IMG/VR virus record: IMGVR_UViG_3300005337_000004
Span: 1 to 60,744 of that record
Direction: 5' to 3' (one strand)
Source: a virus
Length of the DNA stretch: 60,744 bases
How positions within the stretch are numbered: position 1 is the stretch's first letter; the number at the start of each line of letters is the position of its first letter. The notes beneath the pieces are model-generated. The model had not been told where the DNA came from, searched no databases, and saw nothing but the letters and a program-made list of their open reading frames with translations. The position numbers were made by a program, and so were the translations under genes. Below, in pieces: positions 5,487 to 39,654 of the stretch.

Positions 5487-5608
5487 ACCTCGATGATACC
5501 TGTTGCCACTTCCGGAATCCATCCCCGGAACCCTCTTGCGGAAGTAGCTTCCGGAAGCTACTGTTAGAGATGTCAGGAAGCAGGAAGCAACCGAGGGGGA
5601 AGCTCGAA
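5487..5608. promoter_or_regulatory. divergent control region with perfect 20-bp palindrome and GGAAGC boxes
   Basis: The perfect palindrome AGTAGCTTCCGGAAGCTACT occupies 5543-5562. It overlaps a rightward promoter read as -35 TTGCGG (5536-5541), 17-bp spacer, -10 TACTGT (5559-5564). GGAAGC recurs at 5576, 5583 and 5598, giving five copies in 57 bp counting both orientations. GTTGCCACTTCCGG at 5502-5515 flanks the leftward -10. The layout suggests a repressor blocking both directions. Confidence 0.7.
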
Positions 5609-8674: not shown

Positions 8675-9079
8675 TCAGAGCCCACGTTTCGCAAGCTCGA
8701 CCTCGGTCGCAGCCTCACATACAGCCGATGCCGTCTTGGCACTGGTCGCGTAGGCGTTGACCACCACCGATCCTCGCGGCTCACAGATCAGCAGCGTCGG
8801 GTCTTCGTGTTCGTAGTCCCATCCGCTGCGCGGCTTCTGCTCATACTTCCGGACCGTACCGTCCACGTGGAGGCTGGCCTGCCGGTGATGCCACGTCACC
8901 CGCTGCGGGGCCGCATCCAGCAGGGAAATCACCACAACGGCGTACCGGCCGCGACAGTCAGCGTTCAGGGCTGCACAGTGTTCGTTCGCAAGGCCTTCAG
9001 AGGTGAAGGCGACGATGGGCCCGTTCGACTCCCACTCGTCCTCGCAGACGGCCCAGACGGTGGTGCGATCGTTGCCCAT
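8675..9079 (-). CDS. hypothetical protein, 134 aa
   Basis: Start set at ATG 9079; the frame is open further upstream but that covers a repeat-rich control region. The sequence (TTVWAVCEDEWESNGPIVAFTS, then VVVISLLDAAPQRVTWH) suggests a small mixed alpha/beta domain. Convergent with the DUF397 gene. No family identified; the N-terminus is uncertain. Confidence 0.6.
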   Translation of the reverse strand: MGNDRTTVWAVCEDEWESNGPIVAFTSEGLANEHCAALNADCRGRYAVVVISLLDAAPQRVTWHHRQASLHVDGTVRKYEQKPRSGWDYEHEDPTLLICEPRGSVVVNAYATSAKTASAVCEAATEVELAKRGL

Positions 9080-21418: not shown

Positions 21419-22453
21419 CTAGAACGTGCCTTCGTAGGCATCAGGATCGGTGGGGTTCTGCCAGCCCACGTGCCCGCCCTTCGGCGGGCGGTAGGCGTCG
21501 GCATCGGGGTTCTCATACGTGCGGTGCCCGGTTGCTTTGACAAGCGGCGGCTTGATGACGAACTCCTTTTGAAGCCGATACCGCCACACGAGAAAGCGGC
21601 TGTCGGCCCCGTCCAGGCCGGCTTCGCACTTGGCTGCGAGTGCATCGTGAGTCCAACCCTCAACAAGCCACCGGGCGACGTCGTTGGCGAGCATGGCCCG
21701 TTCCAGGGGGCTGGGCTGCCGGTCGTGCGGGAGCTTGTCAACGAAGATCCGTGCCTGCTTCATCGTTTCGTCGTCGGCGACGAAGTCGACGACCTTCCCG
21801 GCCGGTGCATGGCGGGTCGGGATGTTTTCCCCGCCCTCCCCCCCCTCCTGCACCACCACCCCCTCCTCCGACGCGGGGAACCATTCGGGAGGTCCAGCGG
21901 CGGCGGGTGGGGGTGGTCGATCTAGAGGGGAGTTCTTACCTGAGGGGATAAGAGGGGTGGGGGTTAGCTCCTGGCTAACCCGTTCTGTAGCTGTGGGATA
22001 ACCCAAACGGCTGCTTGGGTTATCTGGGGGATAACCCATCCCCGTTGAATGGGTTAGCTGAGGGCTAACGCATTCGACCTCAGGTTGGGTTACCTCCTGG
22101 CTAACGCGCTCGGGGCGCGTGCACTGACCCCACAGCCCGTCGTGCGGGGCGTCCGGACACAAGACGGGGATGCGGTAGATGGCGTGCTGACCCGGGCGGC
22201 CGGCCATCTGTCGCCCCTTATGAACGGCGTACTCCAAAACGTTCTTGCGCTTGAGTGCGTCCAGGGCTACGCGCCAACTGTCCGCCTTCTTGCCGACTCG
22301 ACGCAGGATGTAGTCGGCGTGGACGGACTTGAAGGTCTCGCGGGTGACGTCGTTGGCGTTCTCCGCTAGGACGATCAGATCGTCGCGCTCGCCCTTGGTC
22401 AGCCCTGCGTCCTGCCAGTGGTTCATGACCTCGACGATTAGCTTGACGCCCAT
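21419..22453 (-). CDS. phage-type replication initiator with internal iteron-bearing linker
   Basis: 344 aa. The N-terminal 95 residues form a winged-helix-like domain (VTRETFKSVHADYILRRVGK..SWRVALDALKRKNVLEYAV). The middle is a low-complexity linker in which RVSQEVT, GYP and RVSQELT recur. A helical C-terminal domain (ERAMLANDVARWLVEGWTHD) follows. The DNA encoding the linker carries five GGGTTANC-N5-GNTAACSC inverted repeats. An initiator whose gene contains its own binding sites is the lambda O arrangement. ATG coupled to an 18-aa leader peptide. Confidence 0.75.
   Translation of the reverse strand: MGVKLIVEVMNHWQDAGLTKGERDDLIVLAENANDVTRETFKSVHADYILRRVGKKADSWRVALDALKRKNVLEYAVHKGRQMAGRPGQHAIYRIPVLCPDAPHDGLWGQCTRPERVSQEVTQPEVECVSPQLTHSTGMGYPPDNPSSRLGYPTATERVSQELTPTPLIPSGKNSPLDRPPPPAAAGPPEWFPASEEGVVVQEGGEGGENIPTRHAPAGKVVDFVADDETMKQARIFVDKLPHDRQPSPLERAMLANDVARWLVEGWTHDALAAKCEAGLDGADSRFLVWRYRLQKEFVIKPPLVKATGHRTYENPDADAYRPPKGGHVGWQNPTDPDAYEGTF
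21961..22107. repeat. five 21-bp palindromic iterons inside an initiator gene, candidate origin
   Basis: Units GGGTTAGC-N5-GCTAACCC at 21961-21981, GGGTTATC-N5-GATAACCC at 22017-22037, GGGTTAGC-N5-GCTAACGC at 22051-22071 and GGGTTACC-N5-GCTAACGC at 22087-22107. A degenerate fifth at 21984-22004 keeps only the right arm. Steps are 23, 33, 34 and 36 bp. Beside them, 21834-21870 is a run of C blocks (G-rich on the minus strand). Confidence 0.72.
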
Positions 22454-25571: not shown

Positions 25572-26912
25572 TCACGTCTCCGCCATGTCGATCGCCCGCG
25601 AATAATGCCCCTGGAACCCGACGGTGATTTTGCACTGCGGGCCTTGCCGGTTCTTGGCGACGATCAGTTCTAGTTCGCCGGCGCGCGGGGACTCGCGTTC
25701 GTAGTAGTCGTCCCGGTACAGCAGCACGACGATGTTGGCGTCCTGTGCGATGGTGTCGGATTCGCGAATGTCGGACAGGATGGGCCGCTTGTCGGCGCGG
25801 GCGGCGGGTGACCGATTGAGCTGGGCGCCAACGACGACGGGCACGCGGAAGTCCATGGCTATGCGCTTGATGCCACGGGACAGTCCGCCGACGTCAATGG
25901 TACGGTTCCCAGATTCTCTCTCGGGCGTGAGGATCTGCAGGTAGTCAATGACGACCAGCTCGGGCAGGGCTTGGCGGGCCTGCATGCGACGCAGGGTAGA
26001 GCGAATCCGGCCGAGGGTGACGGTGCCGTCGATAATCATGTCAAAGGGGGCGCCGAGGATCCGGCCGGCCGCTTTACCGAGCCGCTTCTGCTCGAAATCG
26101 TCGATGCTGACGTTACCGCGCAAATGATGCAGCGGCACTTTCGCCTCGGCCGCGAACAGGCGCTGCATGACCTGCTCTTTGCTCATCTCCACTGACACCA
26201 GCAGGGTGTGCTTGCCGCATTCGATGGCGGCATGCCGGGCAAAGTCGACCATCACCACTGACTTACCCATGCCGGTGGCGCCGCCCACGACCACCATGTC
26301 ACCGCCTTCGATAGGCACGGCGCCACGGAAGTCCCGGTACGGGGTGGGCAGGTAGTTGCGGGGCTTGTCGCGGTCCAGGAGGTCGTCCAGGAAGCTCTCA
26401 GCGGCATCTGCGACGGCGGTGACGTCCTGACCGCCGGTGTCGCCGGTGACAGCCTGGATTTCGGCGGCGGCCAGATCGACGATTGCGGCGGTGTCGGAAC
26501 CGTCGGTGACGTAGGACATCTGCACGATCCGGGTTCCGGCCTGCCCGAGGCGCCGCAGGATCGCGGTCTCTTTGACGATGTCGGCGTAGTAGCCGGCGTT
26601 CGCGGCGGTCGGCACCGTGTGGATCAGTTCTTGCAGGTACGGTCCGCCGCCGATTTGGTTGAAATCGCCGTTCTTGGTGAGCAGCGCACCGACGGTGACG
26701 GGGTCGGCTGGTTCGCCGCGGGCGTTGAGGTCGCAGATGGCGGCGAAGATGGTTTCGTGTGCGGGCTTGTAGAAGTCGGCGGGCGTCAGGGGCACGTCGA
26801 GGACGTCGCCGATGGCATTGGGTGAGAGCATCATGCCGCCGAGGACGCACCGTTCGGCGTCGAGGTCGGACGGCGGGGTGCGGTCGTATCCGGGCTCGTC
26901 GGGGTTGGTCAT
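25572..26912 (-). CDS. dnaB: DnaB-family replicative helicase
   Basis: 446 aa. The N-terminal DnaB domain starts at SDLDAERCVLGGMML. The RecA-like domain has Walker A GGATGMGKS near 210-218, Walker B LVVIDYLQIL, QLNRS and SDIRESDTIAQDANIVVLLY. Full length for DnaB. It unwinds the fork as a hexamer. ATG overlaps the initiator gene upstream by 4 nt, so initiator and helicase are coupled, as in many phages and plasmids. Confidence 0.96.
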   Translation of the reverse strand: MTNPDEPGYDRTPPSDLDAERCVLGGMMLSPNAIGDVLDVPLTPADFYKPAHETIFAAICDLNARGEPADPVTVGALLTKNGDFNQIGGGPYLQELIHTVPTAANAGYYADIVKETAILRRLGQAGTRIVQMSYVTDGSDTAAIVDLAAAEIQAVTGDTGGQDVTAVADAAESFLDDLLDRDKPRNYLPTPYRDFRGAVPIEGGDMVVVGGATGMGKSVVMVDFARHAAIECGKHTLLVSVEMSKEQVMQRLFAAEAKVPLHHLRGNVSIDDFEQKRLGKAAGRILGAPFDMIIDGTVTLGRIRSTLRRMQARQALPELVVIDYLQILTPERESGNRTIDVGGLSRGIKRIAMDFRVPVVVGAQLNRSPAARADKRPILSDIRESDTIAQDANIVVLLYRDDYYERESPRAGELELIVAKNRQGPQCKITVGFQGHYSRAIDMAET

Positions 26913-28081
26913 GCGGCGCTCCGTTGGTTGGCGGCCGGGTGGCCGGGTGGTGGGCTATTGGGGTGCAGGCAGCGGGCGTCATGGCCGCTTTCGTGCTCGT
27001 ACCAGCCGAAGGGGTCGCACCAGCGGCAGTCGGCGGCGGTGCGGCCGGTAGCGCCGGGGGCGGACTGTTCCGACTTCGGCGGCGTCCAGTACTCCAGGTG
27101 CTTGCGCAGGTTGTTCCAGCCGTGCGTCGCCATGTCGGCTGCGGCCAAGCACAGAAGCTCGGCGCCTTCGCCTTCGTTGAGAAGTTCGCGGGCAGTGCGA
27201 CGGATGGCGTCCGGGGCCTTCACGGGGTGCGCGGCGCCGTTGCGAGTCCTGGCCCATGCTTCGATCCAGGCCTGCACGATCGACTCGGCGGGGTCGGAGG
27301 TGTTCGGCTTGCTGAGATCTTCTTTCTCTCGGGGTTTGTTCGGATCCGCCTCGGGCGGTCGCGTGGTGACCGTAGAGAGAGAAGCTTCTTTGAGAGACTT
27401 ATTAAAGAGATCGTTTCCGCTGGTCAGGTCATGATCAAACGCGGAATTCCGAAGATCGAACGCGGAATTCCGCGCGTGATCTTCGGAATTCCGACACTCG
27501 AAACGACCTGCGGAACTACCGTGTTCTACCTGGTCAGTTCGCGTGTCGGAATTCCGACTCTCGAAAGGATGTGCGAGACCGTTCGGGGCGTCCTTCGGCC
27601 GCGCAGGTGTCGAGCCGATTGCCGGCGGATCCGCCGGACTGGCACGCCAGTCCTCGCGGTAGCTGTCCAGCTTGTCCCATGCGTTCCGCCAGCCCTGGAA
27701 CCCCTCGGGTGGCAGGTCGTTCACCTGGAAGCGACGACGAGATTCGATGCCACCTCGGCCCGTCGATGCGACCAGCCGCTCACCGTCCCGGTTCGTTACC
27801 AGGCCCAGATGGTTCAGCACCTTCAGCGCGTCTCTGACGGCGGTCAGTGAAGTCGGCTTGCCGTTTACGCCAGGCAGAAGCCAGCACAGGTGATCCAGGG
27901 TGAGGCGCCGCGACGACTGATTGTCGCCCTTCTCGATCACCAACGATCGCATGATCGCGTACAGCTGGAACGGCGTGCCGCGCAGCTCGGGATGGAGCAT
28001 CGTCCAGTCCCGTATCGGCGTGAAGGACAGGCGTAACCCGTCGGCCGCGACGAGGTCGAACGACTGATTGTCGGTGGTCAT
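26909..28081 (-). CDS. replication initiator (O-like) with internal origin repeats
   Basis: 390 aa. The N-terminal winged-helix domain contains LRGTPFQLYAIMRSLVI, RRLTLDHLCWLLPGVNG..TSLTAVRDALKVLNHLGLVT. A linker (about 170-260) follows, in which RNS recurs because it is encoded by CGGAATTCC repeats. The C-terminal helical domain ends in CRWCDPFGWYEHESGHDARC, a zinc knuckle. Directly upstream of and coupled to dnaB. By analogy with lambda O it should bind the iterons inside its own gene and recruit the helicase. Confidence 0.8.
   Translation of the reverse strand: MTTDNQSFDLVAADGLRLSFTPIRDWTMLHPELRGTPFQLYAIMRSLVIEKGDNQSSRRLTLDHLCWLLPGVNGKPTSLTAVRDALKVLNHLGLVTNRDGERLVASTGRGGIESRRRFQVNDLPPEGFQGWRNAWDKLDSYREDWRASPADPPAIGSTPARPKDAPNGLAHPFESRNSDTRTDQVEHGSSAGRFECRNSEDHARNSAFDLRNSAFDHDLTSGNDLFNKSLKEASLSTVTTRPPEADPNKPREKEDLSKPNTSDPAESIVQAWIEAWARTRNGAAHPVKAPDAIRRTARELLNEGEGAELLCLAAADMATHGWNNLRKHLEYWTPPKSEQSAPGATGRTAADCRWCDPFGWYEHESGHDARCLHPNSPPPGHPAANQRSAA
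27373..27556. repeat. CGGAATTCCG iterons plus AT-rich tract, probable replication origin
   Basis: Perfect CGGAATTCCG palindromes start at 27442, 27463, 27484 and 27547, with a degenerate CGGAACTACCG at 27511. The first three are spaced exactly 21 bp (two helical turns). On the left, 27373-27417 is strikingly AT-rich for this DNA (containing ACTTATTAAAGAGATCGTTT), a candidate unwinding element. All lie within the initiator gene upstream of dnaB. Confidence 0.8.
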
Positions 28082-36086: not shown

Positions 36087-36425
36087 ATGACTACCACCAT
36101 CACCCTCGCGCTGCTCCTCATCGGCGCATGCCTCGCCGGTTTCGGCACCCTTGCGTTCCTTGCCGCCGTTCCCGCCGCACCTGACCCCGACGGCACCAAC
36201 CCCAGCGCGCCCGATGTCGAAACGCTGCGCCTCACCTGGCTCGCGGCCCGCCATGGACGCCACGTCGCCGGACTCGGCCTCGCCATGTGGCTGGCCGCAC
36301 ACCCCGCCACCGCCGCCCCCTATACCGCGCTGCTTATCGCCGCCGGTGTTGCCTTTGCCACCTCGTACCTCACCACCCGCGCCGCCCCCGAACTCATGAA
36401 GAGGGCAGCCGCATGGACCTTGTGA
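36087..36425 (+). CDS. small membrane protein, possible Spd-type, 112 aa
   Basis: ATG with GAAAGGAG. Three likely membrane segments (LALLLIGACLAGFGTLAFLA; about 60-74; YTALLIAAGVAFATSYL). Immediately upstream of the DUF2637/tra pair, where Streptomyces plasmids encode spread proteins. Overlaps the next gene by 13 nt. Confidence 0.7.
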   Translation: MTTTITLALLLIGACLAGFGTLAFLAAVPAAPDPDGTNPSAPDVETLRLTWLAARHGRHVAGLGLAMWLAAHPATAAPYTALLIAAGVAFATSYLTTRAAPELMKRAAAWTL

Positions 36426-37462
36426 TAAATCAGGATTCTGCCGCCACCAACGAAAGCGATAAGATGCATTCGGGCTTGGGGCCAAAGAACCCGACCGTCG
36501 GGAAGGACGGCCGGGCTTTGCCGCACGCGATTGTTGGGATCGACGTGAGCGACAAGCCCCACGGTAAGGCAAAAAGGCGCGACAAGAACAGCGCGCCCAC
36601 CCTGGCCGTCCCCAAAGAAGCCATCCGCGACTCCCGCATCGGCGGGACCATCGCCCTACTTTGCGCCGCTGCCATTTCCGCACAAACCCTGTTCGCCCTC
36701 GGGCGGCTCATCGGCCTGTCCCCCTGGACCGCATGGCTGCTGCCGGCCGCGCTCGACGTCTACGCCATGACCGCAACCCGCGTCGCCTTCCAGGTGCCCG
36801 TCGGCCACACCGCCCGCGACAAGGCCATCTGGAACGCCCGCGTCGCCCTGTTCTTCACGATCTCCAGCAACTGCCTCTACCACGCCATGCACCTCGCTAA
36901 GGGGCACCACAACTGGACCGCCTCCGACTGGGCCCTCGTCGGCGTCTCGGCGCTCCCGCCGATCGTCGTGGAGCGTCTGCTGCACTTGCAGTCGATCGTG
37001 AACTCCGGCACGGTTCCGGCCGCGCCGGAAGAGGCGAGTGGAAGCCGGAAGGAGTCCGCAGCCGGAAACGGAAGCGCCGACCGGAAGCAGCGGCCGGAAG
37101 CTCCCGCTTCCACTCCCGCTTCCGTTCCGGCTTCCAGCCCGCTTCCGGTATCCGCTCCCGCCGGAAGCCCCGCCGCTTCCAGCGGAAGCAGACCGGCCGC
37201 ATCCACTGCAAGCCGGCACACCGCATCCGGACCCATCCCCATCCAGCGCGGCGAGCGACTGAAAGTCGTCCGCGACTGGATCGACAGCGCCGGCGGCGAC
37301 AAGAAGTCCGTGCCGCTGAAGGAGATCCAGGAGCGCTTCGGCGTGTCCCAGGCGACCGCCTCCCGCATGCGTGACGACGCCGCAGATCTGCCCTCCAAGC
37401 CCGCGCCGCAGCCCGAGCAGGCCGGCGACGAGGAGCCCGAACGAGCGCGGGAGGCGAGCTGA
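36413..37462 (+). CDS. DUF2637 membrane protein with C-terminal winged helix
   Basis: 349 aa. ATG 36413 with GAGGG. Membrane segments lie between 83 and 195 (GGTIALLCAAAISAQTLFAL, LSPWTAWLLPAALDVYAMTA, RVALFFTISSNCLYHAMHL, LVGVSALPPIVVERL), the DUF2637 region always found before TraB on Streptomyces elements. An Ala/Ser/Pro linker follows, whose DNA holds eleven GGAAGC words. LKEIQERFGVSQATASRMRD is a C-terminal HTH that could recognise them. Probably assists the translocase. Confidence 0.83.
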   Translation: MDLVINQDSAATNESDKMHSGLGPKNPTVGKDGRALPHAIVGIDVSDKPHGKAKRRDKNSAPTLAVPKEAIRDSRIGGTIALLCAAAISAQTLFALGRLIGLSPWTAWLLPAALDVYAMTATRVAFQVPVGHTARDKAIWNARVALFFTISSNCLYHAMHLAKGHHNWTASDWALVGVSALPPIVVERLLHLQSIVNSGTVPAAPEEASGSRKESAAGNGSADRKQRPEAPASTPASVPASSPLPVSAPAGSPAASSGSRPAASTASRHTASGPIPIQRGERLKVVRDWIDSAGGDKKSVPLKEIQERFGVSQATASRMRDDAADLPSKPAPQPEQAGDEEPERAREAS

Positions 37463-38146
37463 TGACACGACACGACGCGGAGATCTTCGACGAGACCACC
37501 GAAGATTTTCGGTGGAGCAGCGGCCACGACCTGAGTCGCGTCATTCCTGGATCTGCCGCACAAAGGGGCGACGAACAGGACTTGACCTGGCCTTCTGCCG
37601 TTTTTCCCGGCCCCGGCGTGGGCTACGACGCGCTGAGTCAGCACGGTCAGCTCACTTTGAACGCGCTGCTCGCCCCCGACCTGCCGCGGCCCATGAACGC
37701 CGCCTGGACCAAGTGGCCCGGCTGGCAGTACGTGTGGCCCGGTGCGCTCGCAGGCGGCTGGTCCGGGCTCGGGTTCTGGGCGCACTCCGAGCCGCTGCAC
37801 CCGCTGTTCGCCGGCGGTTTTGGGCTGGCCGGCGCAGCCCTAATGGCGCTCGGCGCGCTCGGCATCGCCGCCAGCAACACCGGGAAGCGGGATGCGGAAG
37901 ACCACCCGGCCGACACCGCCGGAACCCGCGCTCTCATCGGTCTCGGCGGGGCTGCATGGGCCGGCGCCGCGGCTTCCGGTGCCGGGTTCTCCGGTATCGG
38001 ATGCATGCTCGCTTTCGGAAGCCTCGGCGCCGCATACCTCGGCGCAAGCGGATGGAAGCACATGCGACGCCACAACGCCATCCGCGCCGTCATCGACTAT
38101 GCATCCGCTTCCAATCCGGGACCCGGAAGCGGCATGCCGCTTCCGG
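37040..38146. repeat. GGAAGC/GCTTCC cluster, candidate transfer-recognition locus
   Basis: GGAAGC or its complement occurs at 37040, 37070, 37083, 37096, 37106, 37118, 37130, 37141, 37163, 37175 and 37184 (eleven in 150 bp). Seven more are at 37883, 37972, 38017, 38054, 38107, 38125 and 38139. Many are the 8-mer CCGGAAGC. Positions 38123-38146 form a perfect 24-bp palindrome centred on GCATGC. The cluster spans the DUF2637 linker and the start of the tra gene. Confidence 0.7.
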
Positions 38147-39654
38147 TGATCCCGCCGTTTGCACTGCCGGACAACCGGATGCCGTCGAACCCCTATGAGC
38201 ACCGGTTGCGGCAGGCCGTGTCGGTACAGGGAGTCGACGACATCTGGTTCGGGCCGCCGATGAGGGTGGCCCAGGACACCTGGCAGCTGCCGTTCGAACT
38301 GGGCGAGACCTCCAAGCTGTCGCCGCAGGCCCTTGTGAAGAAGGAAGACCAGCTCGCCACCAACGCCCGCGCCCGGCGTATCGAGGTCGAACCCACCCAC
38401 GGACCCCGCGGCACCATGACCGTGTACGACGGGCCTGACCGCACAGACGAGACCTTCCCGTGGAACGGCACCCTCATTAAGAGCGTCGAGAAGCCGTTCC
38501 TCATCGCCTACGACGAAGCCAGCCGGAATACCGAAATCGACTTCACCGAGCACATTCTGCTCACCGGCCGCACGCGCTTGGGCAAGTCGGCACTTCTGCG
38601 CTACCTGCTCGTCGCCACCATCGAATGCGACATCGTCCGATTCGGCGTCGACTGCAAAGACGGCGCACCAGGCTTCGGAATGCTCGAACCGGTCTTCACC
38701 GAGCTGGCCACCGACCCGATGGACGGATGGCGCCAACAATTCGGCATCAAAGGCATTGCCGCCGTCCGCGGCCAGTGGATGCGCCGCAAAGGCATCGACA
38801 AGTGGGACCTGGCCGACGGGCCCCGCGTTGTCCAGGCCACCGACGAGCTCGCCGAGATGATCCTGCGCTACCCCGACGCCGCAGAGATTTTCAAGTCCAA
38901 CCTGTCGCTCGTTGCCGCCTCAGCCATCACCTACCTCACCGCGACACAGACCCCCTCCAAGGCTGTGTTCGGGAAGAACACCGACGGCCGCAAGCAGTTC
39001 GGCGTCCGCATCGGCTTCAAAAACGACATCGAGGCCAACACCATGGTTTTCGGTGGGCTGCCCGGCTACCGGGTGCAGGATCTGGATGCCGCCGGCAAGC
39101 TCCTCATTGCCTCGCTGGAACACCAGCGTCCTCGACGCCATAAGTCCGTATGGATGGACCGGGACCCGGCGCTTGCCCTAATGGAGCGATACGACGGGCG
39201 CCTGCCGAAGATCGATGCGATGTCATGGGAGGGCTACCTGGCCGCCTGCGAGGCTTTCGACGAGGCGTTGCGGACGGGAGCGAACCCACTGGAGACATTT
39301 GAGCCGCCGCCATCCGGTGGGGGCGGACGGCGCACCGACTCGTTTGTTGATTCGGCACAGGCAGAGGAACGACGTCGGGGCTTTCGACTGGTCACGAACT
39401 ATCCGGGTACGGACGAGCCGATTGAGATGAAGCACCTGGCGCTGTGGAACCTGCTCGGCGAGTACGGCGCTGACGGCACCACCGCCATGGAATTGGCGGC
39501 GCGCCAACTCGACGGGTTTACCTCGGAGTCGAACGTCCGTAAGCAACTGCGGGCCTGGGACGCCCGCGGTTTCATTACCTCGGTGAAGGACGGCCGGGCC
39601 GAGCGCTGGTGGCGCATCGATGTGGTCGACGAGCCAGCCCGGAAGGACGCGTGA
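37462..39654 (+). CDS. TraB-like FtsK/SpoIIIE DNA translocase
   Basis: 730 aa. N-terminal membrane segments lie about 90-200. The FtsK ATPase has Walker A LTGRTRLGKSALLRYLL near 366, Walker B-like VVQATDELAEM near 458 and a following TATQTPSKAVFGKN. A C-terminal winged helix is at about 655-720 (LALWNLLGEYGADGTTAMEL..FTSESNVRKQLRAWDARGFI). Streptomyces TraB proteins have the same order: membrane anchor, hexameric motor and a wHTH that reads 8-bp repeats to move double-stranded DNA between mycelial cells. ATG in TGATGA. Confidence 0.88.
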   Translation: MTRHDAEIFDETTEDFRWSSGHDLSRVIPGSAAQRGDEQDLTWPSAVFPGPGVGYDALSQHGQLTLNALLAPDLPRPMNAAWTKWPGWQYVWPGALAGGWSGLGFWAHSEPLHPLFAGGFGLAGAALMALGALGIAASNTGKRDAEDHPADTAGTRALIGLGGAAWAGAAASGAGFSGIGCMLAFGSLGAAYLGASGWKHMRRHNAIRAVIDYASASNPGPGSGMPLPVIPPFALPDNRMPSNPYEHRLRQAVSVQGVDDIWFGPPMRVAQDTWQLPFELGETSKLSPQALVKKEDQLATNARARRIEVEPTHGPRGTMTVYDGPDRTDETFPWNGTLIKSVEKPFLIAYDEASRNTEIDFTEHILLTGRTRLGKSALLRYLLVATIECDIVRFGVDCKDGAPGFGMLEPVFTELATDPMDGWRQQFGIKGIAAVRGQWMRRKGIDKWDLADGPRVVQATDELAEMILRYPDAAEIFKSNLSLVAASAITYLTATQTPSKAVFGKNTDGRKQFGVRIGFKNDIEANTMVFGGLPGYRVQDLDAAGKLLIASLEHQRPRRHKSVWMDRDPALALMERYDGRLPKIDAMSWEGYLAACEAFDEALRTGANPLETFEPPPSGGGGRRTDSFVDSAQAEERRRGFRLVTNYPGTDEPIEMKHLALWNLLGEYGADGTTAMELAARQLDGFTSESNVRKQLRAWDARGFITSVKDGRAERWWRIDVVDEPARKDA

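Follow-up and report, generated by a model that had tools for sequence, protein, structure and literature searches.

The DNA analysed here (termed the window) is the stretch of 60,744 nucleotides with which an IMG/VR virus record of 124,744 bp begins. An exact 110-bp direct repeat occurs at both ends of this record, so that the genome is probably complete, at about 124.6 kb. Judging from this probable completeness and from genes for a terminase, a portal protein, a head protease and a tyrosine integrase (the last at 79.1-79.6 kb), the source element most likely belongs to the temperate tailed phages and has an actinobacterial host; with its head and packaging genes and its integrase, it shows the features expected of a phage-plasmid or temperate tailed phage. 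The only relatives found in IMG/VR are the contigs termed here L005 and L006, and none were found among the GTDB genomes scanned.

Two genes of this element are of interest (Table 1). The first encodes a DUF2637 protein in which a disordered linker joins about four transmembrane (TM) helices to a C-terminal helix-turn-helix (HTH), the layout that characterizes the class of proteins considered below. A structure model places helices at residues 81-210, leaves the linker unstructured and forms the HTH at residues 291-336 with a pLDDT of 85-89, confidence being low within the TM part; when this HTH was compared with known structures using Foldseek, a FapR-type HTH ranked second, which is a weak match (rmsd 2.0, 45 columns, probability 0.85, E > 1). 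The second gene, traB, encodes a TraB-like protein in which a predicted membrane region at the N-terminus is followed by an ATPase and, at the C-terminus, by a winged helix (wHTH). It is about 28% related to the FtsK proteins of Streptomyces phage-plasmids of roughly 130 kb and of phage Gilgamesh, and it aligns end to end with phage-plasmid FtsK (profile E = 2e-40), the winged helix included, which bears out an initial annotation of this DNA that had placed such a domain at the C-terminus. With pIJ101 TraB, in what is a weak comparison, the ATPase part alone is held in common. (The structure model of TraB, having a pLDDT of 30, is left out of the argument.) The gene is also a mosaic: residues 1-570 are nearly identical to those of L005, while the C-terminal 65 residues are 95% like L006 and 69% like L005, a pattern which suggests that the wHTH was exchanged by recombination.

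Table 1. Features of the DUF2637-traB locus (window coordinates)
Feature	Position	Strand or orientation	Remarks
DUF2637 membrane protein gene	36413..37462	+	Pfam PF10935, E 1.3e-4, just below its cutoff; homologues in L005 and L006
Array 1	37040..37189	mixed orientation	11 GGAAGC/GCTTCC words in the linker-coding part of the DUF2637 gene
Coding region of DUF2637 C-terminal HTH	37247..37384	+	model helices 291-304, 314-321, 325-336; candidate array reader
FtsK/SpoIIIE (TraB-like) DNA translocase gene	37462..39654	+	phrog_1358, E 1.3e-6; PDB 6o1w DNA translocase coupling protein, E 2e-4
Array 2	37883..38144	both strands, all three frames	7 words where traB encodes its N-terminal, predicted membrane region
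Palindrome	38123..38146		perfect, 24 bp, CCGGAAGCGGCATGCCGCTTCCGG; contains two words
Coding region of TraB C-terminal winged helix	39418..39621	+	aligned with FtsK C-termini of L007-L011; rival reader

Both genes contain, within their coding sequences, clusters of the 6-mer GGAAGC or of its complement GCTTCC (termed here words). The eleven words of array 1 lie at 37040+, 37070+, 37083+, 37096+, 37106-, 37118-, 37130-, 37141-, 37163+, 37175- and 37184+ (spacings of 30, 13, 13, 10, 12, 12, 11, 22, 12 and 9 bp), and they fill the linker-coding region, which is the part of the gene under least protein constraint; the seven words of array 2, spread over 262 bp, lie at 37883+, 37972-, 38017+, 38054+, 38107-, 38125+ and 38139-. 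Hence the initial annotation counted correctly in reporting eleven words in 150 bp and seven more beyond them, and was right about the perfect 24-bp palindrome and about the presence of words on both strands within coding sequence; its placement of the site at the junction of the two genes was mistaken, however, inasmuch as the words sit inside both genes and the 690 bp between the arrays contain none. The 8-mer upon which it focused, CCGGAAGC, is real (14 copies in the record, 7 of them among the array words) but accounts for just 7 of the 18 words; what the words share is the GGAAGC core. This core (33 sites in the window and L006) is preceded by C or T at 29 sites and followed by G or C at 27 and then by G at 22, with A never occurring at the second of these following positions. 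The record as a whole contains 107 words, at a density of about 16 per kb in this region versus 0.72 per kb elsewhere, and GGAAGC exhibits the strongest local clustering among all 6-mers across the 124.7 kb. Spacing by one helical turn (about 11-11.5 bp) is visible among the words in the window, at a level not beyond that of the control (p 0.14). The spaced palindrome pattern was found elsewhere in IMG/VR on the L005 contig only.

Selection acts on these words at the level of the DNA. When the two stretches are recoded synonymously, 1.1 and 1.2 words are expected versus the 11 and 7 that are seen, and none of 5000 trials reaches the observed numbers; shuffling each stretch's own codons yields p = 0.0002 for array 1 and p = 0.0004 for array 2. 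An excess over synonymous codons is likewise present in L005 and L006, whose TraB proteins are 94% and 73% identical to that of the window, and the remaining parts of traB contain no word. L006, which is 72% identical, has arrays at the same two places with words partly at new positions: 8 of the 18 words are kept in place, and among words of its own are 3 within traB versus 0.31 expected (p 0.0022) and 2 within the linker versus 1.1 expected, the latter not being significant. In a word-agnostic version of the analysis--that is, codon shuffling with a per-word score (adopted because common GC-rich words swamp the maximum raw count) and a family-wise threshold of p <= 0.005--the window and L005 are significant and L006 is borderline only. 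Since the words occupy all three reading frames, exceed synonymous controls and recur in a relative partly at new positions, it is as DNA that the arrays have been selected. Very probably they are arrays of sites bound by a protein, although a repeated word can also spread by duplication.

The same phenomenon is seen in plasmids. A search with the HTH alone identified DUF2637-HTH proteins of Streptomyces and Kitasatospora plasmids, and the word-agnostic test found an over-represented word in 20 of 25 DUF2637 genes versus 11 of 61 control genes, two of the 11 being traB genes that share the window's array; the tested plasmid genes were picked by homology rather than at random, and several are mutually related. 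The word usually differs from element to element: for example, within the DUF2637 genes there are 11 copies of TCTCGGCA in L026 (0.4 expected), 13 of GGTCTCA in K. aureofaciens (1.1 expected), 11 of CGTACAG in S. avermitilis SAP1 (1.2 expected), 10 of CCGGAGCG in pSSFR2 (1.3 expected) and 7 of CCGCTTCG in L034 (0.4 expected), and SCP2.27c has 10 of CCGAAGC (2.5 expected). The closest parallels to the window are SAP1 and K. aureofaciens: both match it in their DUF2637 regions, and their arrays likewise lie in the linker in mixed orientation. In SAP1 the gene contains 11 of the 12 CGTACAG copies, which occupy all three frames and of which ten lie in the linker, and 13 of 14 GGTCTCA copies in K. 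aureofaciens fall wholly inside it, all within or after the linker. Arrays within or just 5' of DUF2637 genes thus form a general arrangement that is apparently undescribed in the open-access literature (earlier description being possible, for instance in work on SCP2). In PLSDB, 313 plasmids match DUF2637 at E <= 1e-8; matches to the HTH occur in 111 plasmid records.

Certain DUF2637 genes lack an array. These include that of L029, which does encode the HTH, and those of L032, L033 and L037, whose neighbours include a T4SS coupling protein and a MobF relaxase; the lack of an array in these three suggests that the type of motor may be what matters. The relaxase as such is not the dividing line, since SAP1 and pNA4-1 are typed MOBF and nevertheless bear arrays. 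As separate observations, a tra-like P-loop gene of L029 has both inverted and direct GCCGATCA repeats at its 3' end (8804-8998), and the mobF relaxase gene of L032 (3134-7744) contains 12 copies of GCTGGAA versus 2.3 expected, mobF of L037 showing a related excess (10 copies of CTGGAAC versus 2.2 expected).

In ten plasmid genes the words conform to what is termed here the SCP2-type layout: those at the 5' end are all on one strand and those at the 3' end all on the opposite strand, the two groups being about 1 kb apart, flanking the TM-coding part and having steps of mostly exactly 21 bp, or two helical turns. (Within the 3' coiled coil 21 bp also corresponds to a heptad, so that the spacing there is not independent evidence.) Words picked from the coding part occur 14 times in the untranslated 5' flanks versus 0.37 expected (p 8e-18), a few of which might be translated given alternative in-frame upstream starts in L036, L026 and L040. 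Flank words share the coding words' 21-bp register in SCP2 (at -60 and -39, with coding words at 66 and 87), pNA4-1 and L036, and out of register in L034, L035 and L026. Because one and the same word is translated into different residues at the 5' and 3' ends and, in the flank, into none, protein repeats are no explanation. Words contain 8 of the 14 GAA codons in SCP2.27c and 9 of the 14 in pFP3, genes in which GAG codons for Glu number 39 and 33. The window's array does not match this layout, its words being confined to the linker and traB, on mixed strands and at a spacing of about one turn.

What, then, are the words for? That they lack any function and merely reflect chance, codon bias or low protein complexity might be supposed from the Ser/Ala/Pro/Gly linker encoded by array 1; this has a negligible probability, however, given the turnover of sites in L006 and the words in untranslated flanks, and synonymous recoding and codon shuffling rule it out for most of the signal. 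Alternatively, complementary words might pair within the operon mRNA, and array 1 does fold better than dinucleotide shuffles (z -4.8) and synonymous shuffles (p about 0.02). Yet the fold of L006 differs and its array 2 shows no excess (z -1.2; p 0.2), and SCP2-type arrays keep a single orientation per end and extend into untranslated DNA, which suggests that words rather than pairing are being maintained; an mRNA hairpin was therefore rejected as a structure that is not conserved, and an RNA-level role is very improbable. A third possibility is the one raised by the initial annotation, namely that the array is a clt locus whose repeats (TRS) are bound by the C-terminal winged helix of TraB, thereby loading the hexamer for double-stranded conjugal transfer. 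Known TraB proteins recognize 8-bp repeats in this manner, via helix alpha-3 of the wHTH (PMC3583192, PMC12857230), and the phage TraB has such a domain; moreover, 7 of the 18 words are inside traB, and known clt loci also mix direct and inverted repeats, that of pWTY27 extending 16 bp into traA (PMC3583192). Against this, the array follows the DUF2637 gene rather than TraB: it is absent from the five TraB relatives that lack a DUF2637 neighbour (L007-L011), and arrays made of unrelated words occur in the DUF2637 genes of many plasmids. In addition, L005 has kept the word even though its TraB recognition helix is only 64% identical, the core of its DUF2637 HTH being 100% identical, so that the proposed covariation of word and TraB recognition helix is not borne out. 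Finally, three plasmids have a separate, non-coding, clt-like CTGACA array directly behind FtsK/TraB (L031 4316-4450, L027 2340-2500 and L036 18820-19004), from which the DUF2637 word is absent; a TraA footprint in pWTY27 covers TGACACC repeats at a similar place (PMC3583192). The clt of TraB and the DUF2637 array, having different words, thus look like two distinct things. TraB as the reader retains some probability, inasmuch as some of the phage words fall inside traB and no separate array was found behind this gene, but on balance it is unlikely. Hence the idea of a DNA-level site array beside an FtsK/TraB-like motor with a winged helix has stood up, whereas its assignment to TraB has not fared well.

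In L007-L011, which are Streptomyces phage-plasmids, a TGACGTGACG...CGTCACGTCA inverted repeat occurs just 5' of ftsK (e.g., L011 5319-5379). The four plasmid records among them contain a second such set elsewhere, which in the cases checked neighbours a gene for an ERF protein or an AAA ATPase, and Gilgamesh has one exact copy only.

The HTH of the DUF2637 protein itself is the probable reader of the words, to judge from the association of array and gene; the initial annotation, too, had named it as a possible binder. Across 14 elements, a Mantel test shows no significant covariation of HTH and word (r 0.24, p 0.07; partial p 0.19), and a trend among HTH classes was noticed post hoc: all seven TASEYR elements have CGA[AG] and all three [TV]A[SG]ELR elements have CGGAGCG. 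If this HTH is indeed the reader, the candidate binding words in the linker-coding part of the DUF2637 gene and at the start of traB would serve as a self-encoded tether site in cis, a reading that we favour somewhat. C-terminal HTHs of several DUF2637 molecules would bind the spaced words side by side along the DNA; the TM domain would fix the resulting protein-DNA complex in the membrane; and the DNA of the phage-plasmid would thus be kept close to the FtsK/TraB-type motor, which would serve either its double-stranded transfer or its spreading between hyphal compartments. A role of the array in transfer is a real possibility, though slightly less likely than not.

Two other roles would also involve a DNA-binding protein. 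Control of their own genes is common among HTH proteins, and the array might accordingly be a set of operators through which the DUF2637 HTH, or some other repressor, represses the DUF2637-traB operon; SCP2-type words do reach the 5' untranslated flank, and elsewhere in the window a divergent promoter (at 5547-5603) contains a smaller cluster of GGAAGC. Most words, however, are 0.6-1.9 kb into the genes and hence distant from promoters, 18 sites are excessive for a simple operator and the presumed reader is membrane-bound, all of which makes this improbable. Quite improbable, too, is a centromere-like partition site at which DUF2637, as the membrane anchor, would act in segregation and not in transfer. 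Its geometry is like that of centromere repeats, SCP2 parS furnishes a precedent for a self-encoded site by lying within the gene of its binder ParT (PMC12260392), and no ParA-type (AAA_31) match occurs in the record; but SCP2 already has a ParA-ParT-parS system at another location, and DUF2637 genes accompany transfer motors.

The tether site proposed here bears a partial resemblance to several known systems. Like the clt/TRS loci of pSVH1, pIJ101, pJV1 and pWTY27, it consists of short repeated words, direct and inverted, by an FtsK-type transfer gene; those loci, however, are essentially non-coding, lie near tra or kor and are read by TraB, whereas the phage words lie in DUF2637 and traB coding sequence and follow DUF2637, and in three plasmids a separate clt-like array coexists with the DUF2637 array. 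The coding location, which the initial annotation termed unusual, is therefore so by comparison with clt loci but not within the DUF2637 family. The sps palindrome is a site for the DNA-binding protein SpdA2 within its own gene, pIJ101 spdA2 (PMC4170104), yet it involves one to three palindromes, a small soluble protein and a single sequence conserved across plasmids, in contrast to up to 18 words, a membrane protein and a word that is usually element-specific. Similarly, SCP2 parS lies in the coding sequence of its binder (PMC12260392), but is a single 18-bp inverted repeat that functions in partition with a ParA partner. A functional analogue of DUF2637 may be SpdB2 of pSVH1: this integral membrane protein, which belongs to the transfer region, not only interacts with TraB but also binds DNA (PMC4170104), in a manner that is reported to be non-specific, unlike the binding envisaged here. 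No description of a clt of SCP2 was found in the open-access literature.

These arrays define an exact candidate cis locus in SCP2.27c, and likewise in some dozen further plasmids, which can be recoded without changing the protein, and they give a testable activity to the DUF2637 family, of which one paper in the open-access literature makes mention. If the words are element-specific, this may explain how the DNA of co-resident elements is kept separate at the membrane; and the same module in a phage suggests double-stranded conjugal transfer of a prophage. More speculatively, actinobacterial conjugative plasmids and phage-plasmids might share an unrecognized docking system, in which the DUF2637 gene is its own docking site, usually with element-specific words; such sites would then furnish SCP2-type plasmids with their missing cis locus for transfer or anchoring, and would embody a self-recognition code between elements.

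Several other repeats occur within the phage record. The divergent promoter at 5547-5603, flanked by genes for an 86-residue HTH protein (-) and an 81-residue protein (+), contains five GGAAGC words, with flanking bases unlike those of the main array, and a 20-bp palindrome, AGTAGCTTCCGGAAGCTACT; an exact search of IMG/VR for this operator-like palindrome found none. TGGGTTA / GGGATAACCC repeats, direct and inverted, are clustered at 21961-22140 inside an ORF at 21419-22453 (-). Four GGTGTAGCTACACC-like palindromes, operator-like in appearance, occur 5' of a small gene at record positions 110655-110765 (L003 12655-12765). Lastly, four to five copies of the palindrome CGGAATTCCG occur at 27442-27560 within a minus-strand gene (26909-28081) that adjoins a DnaB-like helicase gene, and these constitute a candidate intragenic replication origin.
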